Part shown: positions 19,359 to 27,723 of the stretch, piece by piece
Layout of the letters: each line of letters opens with the position of its first letter
Numbering within the stretch: the first letter of the stretch is position 1
DNA from: Dehalococcoidia bacterium
GTDB lineage: Bacteria > Chloroflexota > Dehalococcoidia > Bin125
Assembly: GCA_022828105.1 (NCBI GenBank)
Contig: JAJEJC010000005.1
Coordinates: forward strand, 434,001-498,000
Length of the DNA stretch: 64,000 bases
Direction: 5' to 3'
The notes under the pieces: generated by a model
Database searches by the model: none
Seen by the model: only the letters and a program-made list of their open reading frames with translations
Told to the model about the DNA's origin: nothing
Program-made: the position numbers and the translations under genes

Positions 19359-21398
19359 CTATTCTTCGGCGCCCAGCCTGATCGATGGTCGAAAGACGTC
19401 TACATACGATCCCCAGCAAACTGTCTCACCCGTCTCTTTGACTGCGCACGTGTGCCCGTCGCCTGCGGCCACTTGACGGAACGTTCCTGTTGGCGCACTC
19501 AACTTTCCGGCGCTGTCGTCGCCCCAACAATGAAGGCTTCCATCGCTGCGCACGCCACAGTTGTGATCGCGGCCTGCGCTGACCTGTCGGAACAGTCCTT
19601 CCTGCGGCGCCGATTGGCCATCCGTGTTGTTGCCCCAGCAGATCGCGCTACCTTGTTGATTCACTCCACAACTGTGATCTCCGCCTGCGCTGACTTGTGT
19701 CCAGCGCTCGTCCGGCGCATCTGATTGCCCCGAACTGTTCACGCCCCAACAGATCGCATCCAGGTCCTCGTCGATTGCACAACTGTGCCTCCCGCCTGCG
19801 CTGACCTGAAGGAACCTCCCATCCGGCGCCGCCGACCGCCCGGCTCCGGATGAGCCCCAGCAGACCACCGACGAACTCTCCGTCAGAGCGCAACTGTGTC
19901 TACCTCCTGCGCTGACTTCCAGGTAGCGACCCGTTGGCACGTCCGATTCCCCGTCACGATTGCCCCCCCAGCAGACCACGGACCCTTCCCCATCCAACGC
20001 ACAAGTGTGATTCCTGCCCGCGCTCACCTGCACGTAGTCTCCCGCCGGGGGCGTTGGGCGGCCTTTCTCCGTGGGGCCCCAACACACGACAGTTCCTTCT
20101 TCAACCATCGCGCAGCTATAGCCGCCTCCGGAGCTCACTTGAACGGAGTTTCCGGTCGGTAATGCGGACTGAGTGAACTCATCAGCTCCCCAGCAGACCA
20201 CTGTTCCATCTTCAGCTAACGCGCAGCTATGGGAACCCCCGGCGCTGACCAGGGCATAGCTCCCGGATGGCGCTTCGGTCTGGCCAGACCAGTTTCCGCC
20301 CCAACAGACGAGCGTGCTTCCTTCGTTCAGTCCACAGGTGTGCCCGCCGCCTGTATTGATTTGCCTATAGCGATCAGGCGGTGCTTCAAGCTCGCCGAAT
20401 CGCTCGTCGCCCCAACACGTCACACTGCCGTTTTCTCTCAGCGCACAGACACGAGCAGCGGCAACACTCACATGAGCAAACTGTCCCGATGGCGCTTCAG
20501 TTTCGCCGCTTTCATTGTTCCCCCAACATGTCACTATTCCTTGTTGTCCAAGTGCGCAGCTAGTGGTACCGCCCACATCCACCTGTGTATAGATCCCCGT
20601 CGGCGCGTCCGATTCACCGAACTCGTTGCTGCCCCAGCAAACCACCTCGCCACGTTCAGTCAGTGCGCAGCTGTGATCGTCGCCGACACTGATTTGTCGA
20701 TAGCTTCCGGGAGGCGCCGTCGCCTGACCGAACCAGTCTCCGCCCCAGCAGACAACTTCCCCTTCCATGTCCAGCGCACAACTGTGAGACCATCCTGCAC
20801 TCACTTGAACGAATCGCCCTGCAGGAGCCTCAGCCTGACCACTCCAGTTCGCGCCCCAGCAGACAACCCTGTCCCCCTCGCCGAGCACGCAGGTATGGTT
20901 TCCGCCAGCGGACAACTGAACCACGCGGATTGTCTCGGCAGGCGTCAATGGCGTGGATTCAACGCCAGTGGCTTCTTCAATACCTTGACTCTGCTGAGAC
21001 TCTTGTTGGGATCCCGATGAGGCGGCAGATGTCTGCTGTCCACTGCTTTGCTCCTCGTCGACCTGGCTCGACGACTCCGAGGCTATGGCGTTCGAAGGTT
21101 CCTCTTGCCTCTGCTCGGCCCTTGCGACCGAGTCTTCCGGCCTGGCCTCCTCCGAAGCAGATGCGGAGCCAGACTGTTGCCTTGAACGCTTCGCTTGATT
21201 CTCTCGATCCTGTTCCAAGGCTGTCTGCGCCGACACGCCGGGGTCGTCAGGCTGCCCCTGCTCGGCCTGATCGACTTCGTCTCGCGTTGCGTCGTCTGCG
21301 GTGCAACTGGTTATGGCTACGACGCAGACCAGTACCGCTGCAAGTGCGAACGCTGGCCGCAACCAGTCATATGACCAAGCAAGCAACCAGGGAAGCAT
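19359..21398 (-). CDS. Secreted RCC1-repeat lipoprotein (beta-propeller)
   Basis: A 679-residue protein. The signal peptide ends in lipobox VVAITSC-TADD. A Gln/Ser/Glu-rich, probably disordered linker of about 130 residues follows, then about 13 repeats of 37-38 residues plus a partial one, each with the RCC1 core HSCAL…VCWG…G…AP.G. Each repeat keeps two Cys, so disulfides within or between blades are likely in this exported protein. Two seven-bladed propellers would need about 14 repeats, which is close. Such proteins usually bind partners at the surface; the ligand is unknown. Base composition is lower in G+C than the neighbouring core genes. Confidence 0.85.
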   Translation of the reverse strand: MLPWLLAWSYDWLRPAFALAAVLVCVVAITSCTADDATRDEVDQAEQGQPDDPGVSAQTALEQDRENQAKRSRQQSGSASASEEARPEDSVARAEQRQEEPSNAIASESSSQVDEEQSSGQQTSAASSGSQQESQQSQGIEEATGVESTPLTPAETIRVVQLSAGGNHTCVLGEGDRVVCWGANWSGQAEAPAGRFVQVSAGWSHSCALDMEGEVVCWGGDWFGQATAPPGSYRQISVGDDHSCALTERGEVVCWGSNEFGESDAPTGIYTQVDVGGTTSCALGQQGIVTCWGNNESGETEAPSGQFAHVSVAAARVCALRENGSVTCWGDERFGELEAPPDRYRQINTGGGHTCGLNEGSTLVCWGGNWSGQTEAPSGSYALVSAGGSHSCALAEDGTVVCWGADEFTQSALPTGNSVQVSSGGGYSCAMVEEGTVVCWGPTEKGRPTPPAGDYVQVSAGRNHTCALDGEGSVVCWGGNRDGESDVPTGRYLEVSAGGRHSCALTESSSVVCWGSSGAGRSAAPDGRFLQVSAGGRHSCAIDEDLDAICWGVNSSGQSDAPDERWTQVSAGGDHSCGVNQQGSAICWGNNTDGQSAPQEGLFRQVSAGRDHNCGVRSDGSLHCWGDDSAGKLSAPTGTFRQVAAGDGHTCAVKETGETVCWGSYVDVFRPSIRLGAEE

Positions 21399-21412
21399 CA
21401 ACGACTTCCCTG

Positions 21413-22303
21413 CTAACGATCGCGCGGGGCCTGGGAGTAGTCGCCGAAGGGGCCGTCTCGCCAGGCGAGGGCTCCCTTGAGGCCTTCGTCGCGCATCCGG
21501 CGCGACCACTCGTAGTGCTGGCTGGTGAACGTGCCGACCGCGTCGAGGTCGGTGCTGCTGCGCAGCGACGAGTAGATGCCCATGTTCTCGTAGAAACGGT
21601 TCATGTGAACCTTGAGCTGGGCCAGGTGGTCGGCGGGCAGGTTCGAGATACGCTCGGCCAGGGCCAGCGTCTTCTCTTCCAGCTCGTCGCGCGGGACGGC
21701 GTAGTTGATCAGGTCGAGCTCGGCCGCCTGCGTCGCGCGAATCGGGTCGCCGGTGTAGAACAGCTCCTTGGCCTTGCGCATGTTGGTCAGCAAGGGCAGG
21801 ATCGCCGAGGTGCGCGAGCCGGCGAAGCGCAGACCGGGGTGACCGATCTGGGTGTCCTCAGCGGCCACGACGAGGTCGGCCATCATCGACAGCTCGAAGC
21901 CGCCCGCAATCGCGTAGCCGTGCAGTTGCGCGATGGTCACCTTCTGCATGTTCCAGAAGTAGAGCCAGATATCGGTCACGCGGGCCATGCCGCCGCGGAT
22001 ACCCATGATCAGGCGGTTGCCGTCGTCGTCGACGGTGCGGAAGCGGCGGTGGATCGCGTCGGCGCCGTAGCCGCCGGCCGGGGTCAGGTCGTAGCCCGCC
22101 GAGAAGGTCCGGCCGGCGCCCTTGACGATGATCACGCGGACATCGTCGTCGGCTTCGAAGTACTCGCAGGCGTCGCGGAAGTCGTAGATCAGCTCCTGCG
22201 AGAGCGCGTTCATCTTCTCCGGCCGGTTGAGCGTGAGGATGCCGATCCGGTCGTCGGTGCCGGTGCGCTCGAGCAGGACATTTTCGAAGGTCGGGAGGGA
22301 CAT
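21413..22303 (-). CDS. Enoyl-CoA hydratase/isomerase family protein (crotonase fold)
   Basis: A 296-residue crotonase. It shows GILTLNRPEKMNALSQEL, the oxyanion-hole block FSAGYDLT and IAGGFELSMMADLVVAA. The Glu in GGFEL aligns with one catalytic Glu of hydratases, but the second, usually in a PE(I/V)xLG block, is replaced (IGHPGLRFAG). The chemistry may therefore be isomerase, hydrolase or carbon-carbon bond cleavage rather than simple hydration. Divergent from the solute-binding lipoprotein gene, with 100 bases between. Confidence 0.85.
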   Translation of the reverse strand: MSLPTFENVLLERTGTDDRIGILTLNRPEKMNALSQELIYDFRDACEYFEADDDVRVIIVKGAGRTFSAGYDLTPAGGYGADAIHRRFRTVDDDGNRLIMGIRGGMARVTDIWLYFWNMQKVTIAQLHGYAIAGGFELSMMADLVVAAEDTQIGHPGLRFAGSRTSAILPLLTNMRKAKELFYTGDPIRATQAAELDLINYAVPRDELEEKTLALAERISNLPADHLAQLKVHMNRFYENMGIYSSLRSSTDLDAVGTFTSQHYEWSRRMRDEGLKGALAWRDGPFGDYSQAPRDR

Positions 22304-24339: not shown

Positions 24340-25407
24340 ATGGTGACTGCTGACAAGCTCAACGAACTGCAACTCGAACCGGAGGCGCCGGAGCTTGATC
24401 TCTCCTGGTTGAATCTGGACACGGTGTGGGGCGTCTCGGCCGAACCGGGCCGCAAGGGGCTCACGCTGCAGCAGATCAACAAGACGATCTACGGCGAGAT
24501 TCCGACCACTTCGGAGGACAGCTCGGCCCGGCCGCGCGGCGCCGCTCCGCCCGAGGGCGCGACCCCGCGCATGACCCCGTGGGTGCTGGGCGACGCGACC
24601 GAGACCTTCTCCGACTCAGCCGCGCTGCTCTACGACGAAGCGGTCTCGCGCCAGTGGTCGTCGGCGACCGACATCCCCTGGGACACGCTGGACGAGCTGC
24701 CCGAGGACATCGAGCGGGCGATGGTGCAACTCTGCACCTCGCTGACGGAGGTCGAGTTCATCGCCGGCGACGTGCCGGGCAAGTGGCTGCCGCGGATCGC
24801 GGCCGACCACTTCGAATCGGGACTCTTCCTGATGTCGCAGGTGATGGACGAGGCGCGCCACACGGATGTCTTCCGCAAGCGCGCGCTGGCCAACGGCGGC
24901 GGTTTATTGCTGCAGGGCGGCGGCGGCGGCCTGCGCCAGATTCTCGAGGCCGAGGACTTCACCCAGATGTCCTCGATGCTGCACATCCTGGGCGAGGGGT
25001 TCGTCCAGTCGCTCTTCCGCCTGGGCGAGCTGATTGCCCACAACGAGGCCGAGAAGCGCATCTTCCGCCTCGCCGCGCAGGATGAATCACGGCACGTCGC
25101 CTACGGCGTGACGCACCTGAAGTACACGCTGGAACACGAGCCCGAGAAGGCCGAGGAGGTCCACTGGACGCTCGACATGTTCGAGGACACGCTGGTCGAC
25201 CCCGACCAGGCCAACCCCGGACTCGCCGGCGCGCTGGTCTACCTGCTCGGCGACGGCGATGTCGACGAGGGTTGGCGGCTGTTCTGGCACGTGCGCCGCA
25301 AGCAGGTGCTCGAGTACCTGCACCGGCTCGACGTGGCCGGACTCGGCGGACGGCTGGAGACCGGTCGTCTGCACCCGTCCCTCGCCGGTGCGCTCGACGA
25401 GAACTAG
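24340..25407 (+). CDS. Ferritin-like carboxylate-bridged diiron protein
   Basis: A 355-residue helical protein with two EXXH motifs: DEARH near residue 173 and DESRH near 250, plus Glu residues in TEVEFIAGD and ILGEGFVQS that could complete a four-Glu/two-His diiron site. It resembles R2-like or AurF-like oxidases and N-oxygenases, but no specific family is clear. A Gly-rich loop (GGGLLLQGGGGG) separates the two halves. It lies just upstream of a homologous gene that has lost much of the metal site, suggesting the two products form a complex. Confidence 0.75.
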   Translation: MVTADKLNELQLEPEAPELDLSWLNLDTVWGVSAEPGRKGLTLQQINKTIYGEIPTTSEDSSARPRGAAPPEGATPRMTPWVLGDATETFSDSAALLYDEAVSRQWSSATDIPWDTLDELPEDIERAMVQLCTSLTEVEFIAGDVPGKWLPRIAADHFESGLFLMSQVMDEARHTDVFRKRALANGGGLLLQGGGGGLRQILEAEDFTQMSSMLHILGEGFVQSLFRLGELIAHNEAEKRIFRLAAQDESRHVAYGVTHLKYTLEHEPEKAEEVHWTLDMFEDTLVDPDQANPGLAGALVYLLGDGDVDEGWRLFWHVRRKQVLEYLHRLDVAGLGGRLETGRLHPSLAGALDEN

Positions 25408-25500
25408 GCAAGACCGCGCGTCAATGCGACGGAACGCAGGGGCGACCCATGAGGTCGCCCCTGCGCGTCTTGACGAACCGTGGAGATTGGGAGGCAACAC

Positions 25501-26595
25501 ATGCCCGACAACGATGTGATCGCCGCCGCGAAGGAGCGACTGGAGCAGTCGGGGCTGCCCTCGACCTGGCTCGACATTCCCGTGCACTGGGGCGTCAAGG
25601 CGAAGGAGCAGGCCACGCCGGAGAACGGCGGGCTGCGCTTCCAGATGCTCAACGTCGATGTCTACGGCGAGGTGCCCGAGTACTGGGACAACAACACCGA
25701 GATTCCGCGCGGCGCCGTGCCCGACACGCGCACCGAGCAGATGGGCTACTCGATCTTCAACAAGGCGGAAGTCTGGTCGGACCTCTGCGCGGATCTGTAT
25801 GAGGACGCGATCGCCGATCGCTGGAACTCCTCTGCCGACATTCCCTGGGACTCGCTTGAGCCGATCGGTGCTGACCTGGAACGAGCGGTCTGCCAGATAG
25901 CCACGTTGATGTCGGAGTACGGCTGGACCAAGGCGCAGACTACGGGCCGCTGGCTGCAGGAGATCTCCTACGGCTACATCGAAGTCAAGCTGTTTCTGGG
26001 CACCGTGGTCTTCGACGCGGCGCGGATGTTCGAGGTCTGGCGCAAGCGCGCCCTGGCCAACGGCGGCGGCATGGGCCGCGGCGGACGCAACTGGAAGTTC
26101 TTGCCGCTGACCCAGAGCTACACGTTCTCGGAGTTTGTGGTCGCGTCGATCATGCACGACTCGATGCTGCTCACGCTGCTGCGCCGCGGCGAGCAGCTCG
26201 CCCGGACCGACGCCGAGCGCCGCATCTACCAACTCTGCGAGCAGGACCTTGAGCGGCACCTGGCCTACTTCGTCGATCACATGCGCTACCTGATGCTCAA
26301 GGAGCCGGTGCGGCGCGAGGAGATCCATCGCTACATGAACAAGGCCGAGTGGTACCTGGCCAAGGACGGCGACGACACGCTCTACAGCGCGCTCGCCGTG
26401 ATCATGGGCGACGGTCGTGAAGGCGCGGAAGAAGCAATGGCCGATGTGGCCGAACTGCGCCGCGAGCAGATCGAGACGTACCTGGGTTACCTGCGGCAGT
26501 GCCACCTCGCCGATCGGCAGGATCGGCTCAACGAAGAGCTGCGCAAGTGGGCCGGGATGGTCGAGCTGGAGGAAGAGGAGAAAATTCCGGTCTAG
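25501..26595 (+). CDS. Ferritin-like paralogue with degenerate diiron site
   Basis: A 364-residue homologue of the preceding protein, sharing GEVP/DIPWDSL blocks, RKRALANGGG, and the same helix order. The first EXXH motif (DEARH in the neighbour) is replaced by DAARM, and the Glu of the GEG helix by Asp (MHDSMLL). The second motif survives as LERH. It probably cannot bind two irons and may act as a partner subunit. A GGGAGG ribosome-binding site at 25490-25495 supports the start. Tandem duplication with divergence is the simplest origin. Confidence 0.72.
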   Translation: MPDNDVIAAAKERLEQSGLPSTWLDIPVHWGVKAKEQATPENGGLRFQMLNVDVYGEVPEYWDNNTEIPRGAVPDTRTEQMGYSIFNKAEVWSDLCADLYEDAIADRWNSSADIPWDSLEPIGADLERAVCQIATLMSEYGWTKAQTTGRWLQEISYGYIEVKLFLGTVVFDAARMFEVWRKRALANGGGMGRGGRNWKFLPLTQSYTFSEFVVASIMHDSMLLTLLRRGEQLARTDAERRIYQLCEQDLERHLAYFVDHMRYLMLKEPVRREEIHRYMNKAEWYLAKDGDDTLYSALAVIMGDGREGAEEAMADVAELRREQIETYLGYLRQCHLADRQDRLNEELRKWAGMVELEEEEKIPV

Positions 26596-26698: not shown

Positions 26699-27649
26699 TC
26701 AGGCGAGACACCTGAGGGGCTGGCCGCCGTTGTATTCGAGCATCTGGCCCATTGCGGCGAGCATGTCGATTTCGGCGCCCCACGCTTCGCCACGCAGTTC
26801 GCTGTAGGCGCGGTGCAGGTTGCCGACGATCCGCTCGGTGTCGGTCCATTCGCCGAAGCGGCCCAGGTCGAGGTCGCGGGCGGCTGCGAGCGGATCGACT
26901 CCGCCGTCGTAGGCGGCCCTGGCTGTTTCCTGGACGAATGCCAGGTAGGCGTCGACGTCGTCCAGCACCGAGGCGTCGGCGACCGGTCCGTGGCCGGGGA
27001 TCACGGTTTCGATCGGCAACTCCTTGAGCCGGACCAGCGCCGAACGCCAGCCCGCGACCGAGCCCATCAGCGCGAAGGGCGTGCCACGATTGAAGACGAT
27101 GTCGCCGGCGATCAGCACCCTGCGCTCGGGAATCCAGACGACGGCGTCGGTGTTGGTGTGTGCGGGCGAGACGTAGATCAGTTGCAGCTCGAGGTCGCCG
27201 GCGAAGAGCGTCATCGCGTCATCGAACACAACGCTGGGCGCGGCCGGGCGGAATTCGCCCCACTCAACGCCGGGGAACATCTGCGGCGCGCGTGCCGGCA
27301 GATCCGGCGCGTCGCGCAGCACGTCCTCGCGGCAGCGTCGGTGCCCGACGATCACAGCGTCGTCGGCGAAGAGGAAGTTGCCGTAGGTGTGATCGAAGTG
27401 GCTGTGCGTGTTTACCAGCGTGCGCACCGGGTTGGGGGAGAGACTGGCAATCGCGTCGCGGAAAGCGCGTGTGCGTCGTTCAGTGGCGCAGGCGTCGACG
27501 GCGATCACCTGTCCGCCGGCGTCGACGAAGGCCGGGTTGTTCAGGCACCAGGAACCGTCGTGCTGGATGTAGGCAAAGATGCCCTCCGAGACTTCGACCA
27601 CTTCGGGCTTCGGCAGGATGTCGTTGTGGGAAGTGTGTTCGCTGCTCAT
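26699..27649 (-). CDS. MBL-fold metallo-hydrolase
   Basis: A 316-residue metallo-beta-lactamase-fold protein. The metal motif THSHFDHTYG gives His82, His84, Asp86 and His87; further ligands are His in SPAHTNTD and Asp in IAGDIVFN, with a final His in PGHGP. This set fits quinoprotein relay or SoxH-like and general class B hydrolases; the substrate is unknown. The start at 27649 has AAGGACGAG upstream. Flanked by double-hairpin repeats on both sides. Confidence 0.88.
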   Translation of the reverse strand: MSSEHTSHNDILPKPEVVEVSEGIFAYIQHDGSWCLNNPAFVDAGGQVIAVDACATERRTRAFRDAIASLSPNPVRTLVNTHSHFDHTYGNFLFADDAVIVGHRRCREDVLRDAPDLPARAPQMFPGVEWGEFRPAAPSVVFDDAMTLFAGDLELQLIYVSPAHTNTDAVVWIPERRVLIAGDIVFNRGTPFALMGSVAGWRSALVRLKELPIETVIPGHGPVADASVLDDVDAYLAFVQETARAAYDGGVDPLAAARDLDLGRFGEWTDTERIVGNLHRAYSELRGEAWGAEIDMLAAMGQMLEYNGGQPLRCLA

Positions 27650-27684
27650 TGACTCGTCCTTGCTTGTCAGACGCGGGGTTTTCA

Positions 27685-27723
27685 CCCCCTCTGCCTTCGG
27701 CATCTCCCCCTCAAGGGGGAGAG
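27685..27723 (+). repeat. Double-hairpin repeat, copy 3
   Basis: First stem TGCC-TTC-GGCA; the second stem is shortened to CTCCCCCTCAAGGGGGAG, still fully paired. Positioned 14 bases past the 3' end of the SDR gene on the minus strand. Confidence 0.85.

Follow-up and report, generated by a model that had tools for sequence, protein, structure and literature searches.

Two adjacent ferritin-like genes in the window, the 64,000-nucleotide stretch of a Dehalococcoidia bacterium contig that was analyzed here, encode a protein with an intact six-ligand dimetal site (alpha) and a homologue in which that site is degenerate (beta). The pair recurs in a group of Chloroflexota together with a lipid-carrier-like protein (gamma), a pattern suggestive of a multi-part oxygenase not described before. 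On balance, we favor the reading that a heteromeric dimetal oxygenase, able to activate O2, is built from alpha and beta, with gamma as a third component carrying a hydrophobic substrate. To our knowledge, dimetal oxygenases that combine a functional subunit with an inactive paralogue are confined to a few lineages, some of which oxidize methane and aromatics. If the lineage described here is one more, this architecture would be a recurrent solution. The lineage has multiple copies in single genomes and occurs in Tepidiforma, a cultured, strictly aerobic genus of Dehalococcoidia; it would be a tractable system for asking what the inactive subunit does. It would also contribute an oxidation step to the aerobic metabolism of Chloroflexota from sea and soil, which is poorly understood, and an SCP2 carrier, if a constant component of the enzyme, would tie that step to lipid or hydrocarbon chemistry.

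The dimetal site of alpha and its degenerate counterpart in beta

The first gene (24340–25407, forward strand) encodes the 355-residue alpha, which its open reading frame, AlphaFold2 model, metal ligands, and fold matches mark as the predicted catalytic subunit of ferritin/R2-like type. The six-ligand set of an R2-type dimetal site is complete: E139, E171, H174, E219, E249, and H252. The two motifs that the initial annotation had noticed in the first protein are both read in this frame, DEARH at residues 170–174 (nucleotides 24847–24861) and DESRH at residues 248–252 (nucleotides 25081–25095); E139 and E219 were absent from that annotation. The AlphaFold2 model (mean pLDDT 82, pTM 0.80) is an R2/ferritin-like bundle whose long helices span residues 122–152 (E139), 155–183 (E171 and H174), 207–227 (E219), and 236–266 (E249 and H252). 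Structure prediction had been named as a check on the first protein, and, as read from these helix positions, the predicted ligands fall on four long helices in the E, ExxH, E, ExxH arrangement of ferritin-like dimetal carboxylate proteins, one motif per helix. The model places alpha in the R2-like dimetal superfamily; the predicted fold points to no particular chemistry.

The six ligands are invariant in all 108 family alphas among the relatives read here. Because the alphas of this set were labelled through the metal site itself, two independent checks matter, a tree built without labels (see below) and a search started from gamma in which the relatives were labelled by HMM score and not by site. 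In the gamma-started set, 12 of 12 complete alphas are intact, and the betas are only degenerate.

The second gene encodes the 364-residue beta (25501–26595, forward strand). Its start is most likely the ATG at 25501, which lies behind a GGGAGG ribosome site, rather than the GTG at 25480. The residues of beta that correspond to the six ligands are G, A, M, D, L, and H, with Gly in place of E139 and Asp in place of E219. The DAARM and LERH sequences picked out earlier in the second protein (DAARM at residues 172–176, nucleotides 26014–26028; DLERH at residues 249–253, nucleotides 26245–26259) occupy the same alignment columns as DEARH and DESRH in alpha. The description of a tandem pair with one intact and one metal-site-degenerate member was therefore correct, and the split holds across all relatives examined, with 66 beta homologues keeping between none and two of the six ligand residues, nearly always histidines. 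The two proteins align as paralogues from end to end (hhalign profile E 8e-104, about 34–35% identity; single-sequence comparison E 1e-55), a likeness that, judged from the alignments, is far beyond chance, and the predicted fold of beta follows from its homology to alpha. Many betas elsewhere (L049, L052, L064, L145, and L148) carry one or two additional N-terminal units of ~45 residues each, with the pattern A..KGWPLDLV..AL..G...L..YM..GVTAEQA..FL, that look UBA-like by eye; these units are missing from alpha and from the beta of the window.

The gap between the two genes holds a hairpin with a 13-bp stem and a 5-nt loop (25435–25465, forward strand). Other strong hairpins, several with a T-tract behind them, occur at the same gap in six related loci (L080, L082, L083, and L086–L088). 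A hairpin followed by a T-tract resembles a leaky terminator and could set the ratio of alpha to beta expression. The possibility that the hairpin is a dispersed repeat was ruled out, as its core sequence is single-copy in the genome, and an Rfam search of the window returned nothing.

Genes that recur beside the pairs encode SDR proteins, LLM-type flavin enzymes, TetR proteins, and thiolase-like proteins. In a Pfam tally of 72 neighbors, no family appeared more than three times, and genes of these kinds are probably abundant in such genomes anyway, so the neighbors give no clue to the substrate. The neighbor survey found no conserved reductase or ferredoxin gene beside the pairs. In the window itself, a 716-residue secreted-looking protein with many RCC1-like CWG repeats is encoded upstream of the pair (19359–21509), and a convergent gene downstream of beta (26699–27703) encodes a metallo-beta-lactamase-fold protein that weakly resembles quinoprotein-relay SoxH-related hydrolases (130 bits, compared with a cut-off of 280).

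Duplication history and co-inheritance of the pair

Relatives were drawn from a 400-genome Chloroflexota sample and from a named scan of 84,980 species genomes that gave 409 matching stretches, the best 80 of which were kept. Nearly all of these best 80 are titled Chloroflexota, Chloroflexi, or Dehalococcoidia, and the cultured Tepidiforma flava is included; the systematic sampling was of Chloroflexota. Among viral contigs, none of 50 pattern matches was a relative, and a plasmid search gave one remote ferritin-like match only, from Xenorhabdus (28% over 55%).

In the label-free tree, 25 betas group as a single clade (SH-aLRT 100), sister to 40 alphas (97), the exception being one divergent four-row group that contains an early alpha/beta pair. 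On these sequences, a single ancient duplication is shown to have given alpha and beta. Solo ferritin-like proteins with intact six-ligand sites (L067, L069, L071, and L078) fall outside the alpha/beta clade as an outgroup; they have an extra N-terminal region of ~100 residues that appears TusA/SirA-like by eye, and the one that was tested had no Pfam match.

After the duplication, the two genes were inherited together. The genome of the window has three alpha/beta pairs, and the alpha of each is positioned in the alpha half of the tree as its beta is in the beta half, which shows that pairs were duplicated as units. Over 21 adjacent pairs, alpha and beta distances are correlated (r = 0.895, Mantel p = 0.0001), with beta evolving ~1.6 times faster than alpha. 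Beta lies directly downstream in 23 of 42 independent alpha groups, 17 have no adjacent beta, and two are cut by contig ends. In a further 14 genomes, mostly picked for a lone alpha, beta was present in 13. Rarity of co-occurrence had been proposed as grounds for discarding the idea of a functional pair, and by these counts the genes are not rarely together. Four of the 14 genomes (G421, G422, G423, and G426) each yielded one alpha and one beta that are unlinked, so loss of operon linkage has not entailed loss of beta.

Not every alpha has its own beta. Alphas outnumber betas in several genomes, and this excess, together with the 17 groups lacking an adjacent beta, suggests that some alphas may be homodimers or may share a beta. 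One extended operon (L101, 6953–11470) has the order alpha-alpha-beta-gamma; its two alphas are both intact and differ from each other, and beta is present once. In T. flava (L218, G431:C1:299500–304500), a second alpha that is split over several reading frames, and is thus either broken or mis-sequenced, adjoins an intact beta (ALHDRM).

These observations bear on whether beta is part of the active enzyme at all. Alpha could be a lone homodimeric oxidase of the R2lox or VlmB kind, and beta, instead of forming a structural part of the active enzyme, could be a separate paralogue with a regulatory or chaperone role, much as yeast Rnr4 is believed to assist Rnr2. The solo alpha genes in 17 of the 42 groups and the excess of alphas in several genomes are what such a reading would lead one to expect, and the structures nearest to the alpha model, VlmB and R2lox, are both homodimers. 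It accounts less well for the conserved operon order, for the mirroring of the alpha tree by the beta tree, and for the four genomes that keep both genes though unlinked, and we consider it unlikely.

A probable third component with a predicted SCP2 fold

Gamma is a small protein of about 145–158 residues that emerged from clustering of neighboring genes, directly after beta in several alpha groups. It is encoded outside the window and is absent from the initial annotation, and its tie to the pair in the window is by family and not by position: the single gamma of this genome (G000:C6:162300–162725) is unlinked to all three pairs. This gamma (L161, 9301–9774) adjoins a thyX-like gene and an SDR gene, with no alpha/beta pair beside it. 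When gamma alone was searched in the 400 Chloroflexota genomes, strong matches were found in 16, exactly the genomes that have the alpha/beta family; since the sampled metagenome-assembled genomes are related by descent, this 16-of-16 co-occurrence amounts to fewer independent events than 16. One of these genomes (G305) showed alpha and gamma and no beta. The weaker alpha matches in the same sample are R2/AurF-like or outgroup proteins, and their genomes have no strong gamma. Class genomes gave 36 further gamma loci, arranged as alpha-beta-gamma (11), beta-gamma (9), alpha-gamma (2), or gamma alone (14). At all linked loci, the order alpha-beta-gamma and the single strand are constant.

The model of gamma (pLDDT 84) has, by prediction, the SCP2 lipid-carrier fold. 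Its best structural match is the SCP2 protein 2cx7 (Z 13.1, rmsd 2.3 over 119 residues), followed by 1wfr (Z 11.6); both also surfaced weakly for gamma by sequence, and the top Foldseek matches are UbiJ-SCP2 proteins. Pfam gave no match for gamma: the SCP2 model PF02036 matched none of 13 gammas at E <= 5 and was silent in the window's own genome and its congeners, with controls positive, and hhalign of gamma against three SCP2 proteins from relatives was negative. The SCP2 assignment thus rests on the predicted fold.

A different account of gamma is that it serves general quinone or lipid metabolism and co-occurs with the pair through shared ancestry only, leaving alpha and beta as a two-component system. 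The unlinked gamma of this genome and the 14 of 36 loci at which gamma stands alone fit that account, whereas the direct adjacency of beta and gamma across divergent families, including split operons with alpha elsewhere, does not. We regard the account as distinctly improbable.

In the three-component oxygenase that we favor, alpha would bind two metals through E139, E171, H174, E219, E249, and H252 within its four-helix bundle. The metal pair is probably diiron, with Mn/Fe as the alternative. Beta would stem from an old duplication of alpha, after which it lost the site yet was retained as a partner, in the manner of MmoY with MmoX or PaaC with PaaA, and would act as a structural or regulatory, non-catalytic subunit. 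Gamma, as an SCP2-fold third component, would most likely bind and present the hydrophobic substrate, and the one unlinked gamma of this genome could serve all three alpha/beta pairs. We infer a reaction sequence in which transfer starts with delivery of a lipid-like substrate by gamma, O2 is then activated at the reduced alpha site within an alpha/beta complex, and the product would be hydroxylated or otherwise oxidized. The electrons would come from a reductase.

Comparison with known dimetal and lipid-carrier systems

Neither alpha nor beta reaches the cut-off of any Pfam or NCBIfam model, which bears out the earlier impression that the family looks distinct, and a literature search, with most subscription journals outside its reach, returned no paper describing the alpha/beta pair. 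Among solved structures, the alpha model matches VlmB (Z 23.3), 6d9f (Z 23.1), R2lox (22.6), aldehyde-deformylating oxygenase (22.6), and the sMMO alpha subunit (20.7–21.0), where differences in Z under 1 count as ties. R2lox and VlmB are nearest to alpha.

R2lox has the same fold and the same six ligands as alpha, and the R2lox NCBIfam model finds a weak match in all 31 alphas searched (best E 5e-10). We know of no degenerate partner or gamma for R2lox. The alpha of the window scores 27.2 bits against the NCBIfam equivalog, for which the cut-off is 194, and a search of this genome for the R2lox family found none. R2lox proteins form a Val-Tyr ether cross-link between V72 (E69+3) and Y162 (E167-5) (PMC6060897), and one of them, GkR2loxI, is reported to oxidize alkanes (PMC10867098). 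At the corresponding offsets, the alphas have A142 (107 of 108) and L/M214 (105 of 108). With both cross-link residues replaced and the family cut-off missed by a wide margin, identification of alpha as an R2lox was rejected.

The azoxy synthase VlmB and its homologue 6d9f are the top structural matches of the alpha model, over 252–253 residues. They differ from alpha in their natural-product setting and are only 19% identical to it. No paired degenerate paralogue of VlmB is known to us.

The Pfam model of the class I RNR small subunit (R2), Ribonuc_red_sm, weakly matches 24 of 31 alphas (best E 3.6e-4, below cut-off), and the alpha of the window has no match to it at E <= 1. The position of the R2 radical tyrosine, four residues after the histidine of the first ExxH, is F178, a Phe in 31 of 31 alphas; class Ic R2 proteins likewise have Phe there, so Phe178 alone does not exclude an R2. 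It is very unlikely that alpha oxygenates no substrate and instead forms a radical or modifies itself, as an RNR R2 or a self-sacrificing oxidase would, with beta as a scaffold, because the Ribonuc_red_sm matches that might suggest this stay under the cut-off, the radical position is an invariant Phe, no R1 gene is adjacent, and several paralogous pairs per genome with a partner of lipid-carrier fold would suit catabolism or lipid modification better.

The initial annotation had likened the pair to hydroxylase alpha and beta subunits, and the likeness is present, with an intact subunit beside a homologous subunit that lacks the metal site. MmoX and MmoY of sMMO are the precedent for catalytic and non-catalytic subunits of this kind, and sMMO shares with our pair the occurrence of DExRH twice and an alpha that aligns to the predicted one over 274–281 residues. 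However, the alpha described here has 355 residues compared with about 510, and an SCP2-fold partner would take the place of an MmoB-type effector. Phenol_Hydrox (PF02332) had no match at E <= 1 among 31 alphas and 22 betas. The MmoB/DmpM effector model PF02406 gave no match in this genome or in 20 relatives, but since every control genome was equally silent, this result carries no information. In the phenylacetyl-CoA epoxidase, PaaA and PaaC are likewise catalytic and structural ferritin-like paralogues that act with extra subunits; PaaA depends on PaaC for solubility and assembles with it into a heterotetramer (PMC4498308). PaaA and PaaC are 17% identical to each other, whereas alpha and beta share about twice that. 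The PaaA_PaaC Pfam model was absent at E <= 1 from 31 alphas and 22 betas, and no PaaB- or PaaE-like genes are conserved near the pairs.

For gamma, the nearest fold in the predicted model is that of the Thermus SCP2 protein 2cx7, and the nearest functional parallels come from quinone biosynthesis. Two SCP2 proteins, UbiJ and UbiT, belong to quinone hydroxylation (PMC6747719), and the diiron enzyme COQ7 works more efficiently with the lipid-binding COQ9 (PMC7615680). In both cases, a small lipid-binding protein aids a hydroxylase that acts on a hydrophobic substrate, although the fold of COQ9 differs from that of gamma. We tentatively suggest that the pair and gamma could represent a separate, undescribed oxygenase class, so far seen only in Chloroflexota. 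In such a class, the pairing of a catalytic with a degenerate subunit, as in methane monooxygenase and phenylacetyl-CoA epoxidase, would have arisen again within the R2lox/VlmB branch, and an SCP2-fold carrier would replace the MmoB-type effector and feed lipid-like substrates to the enzyme.
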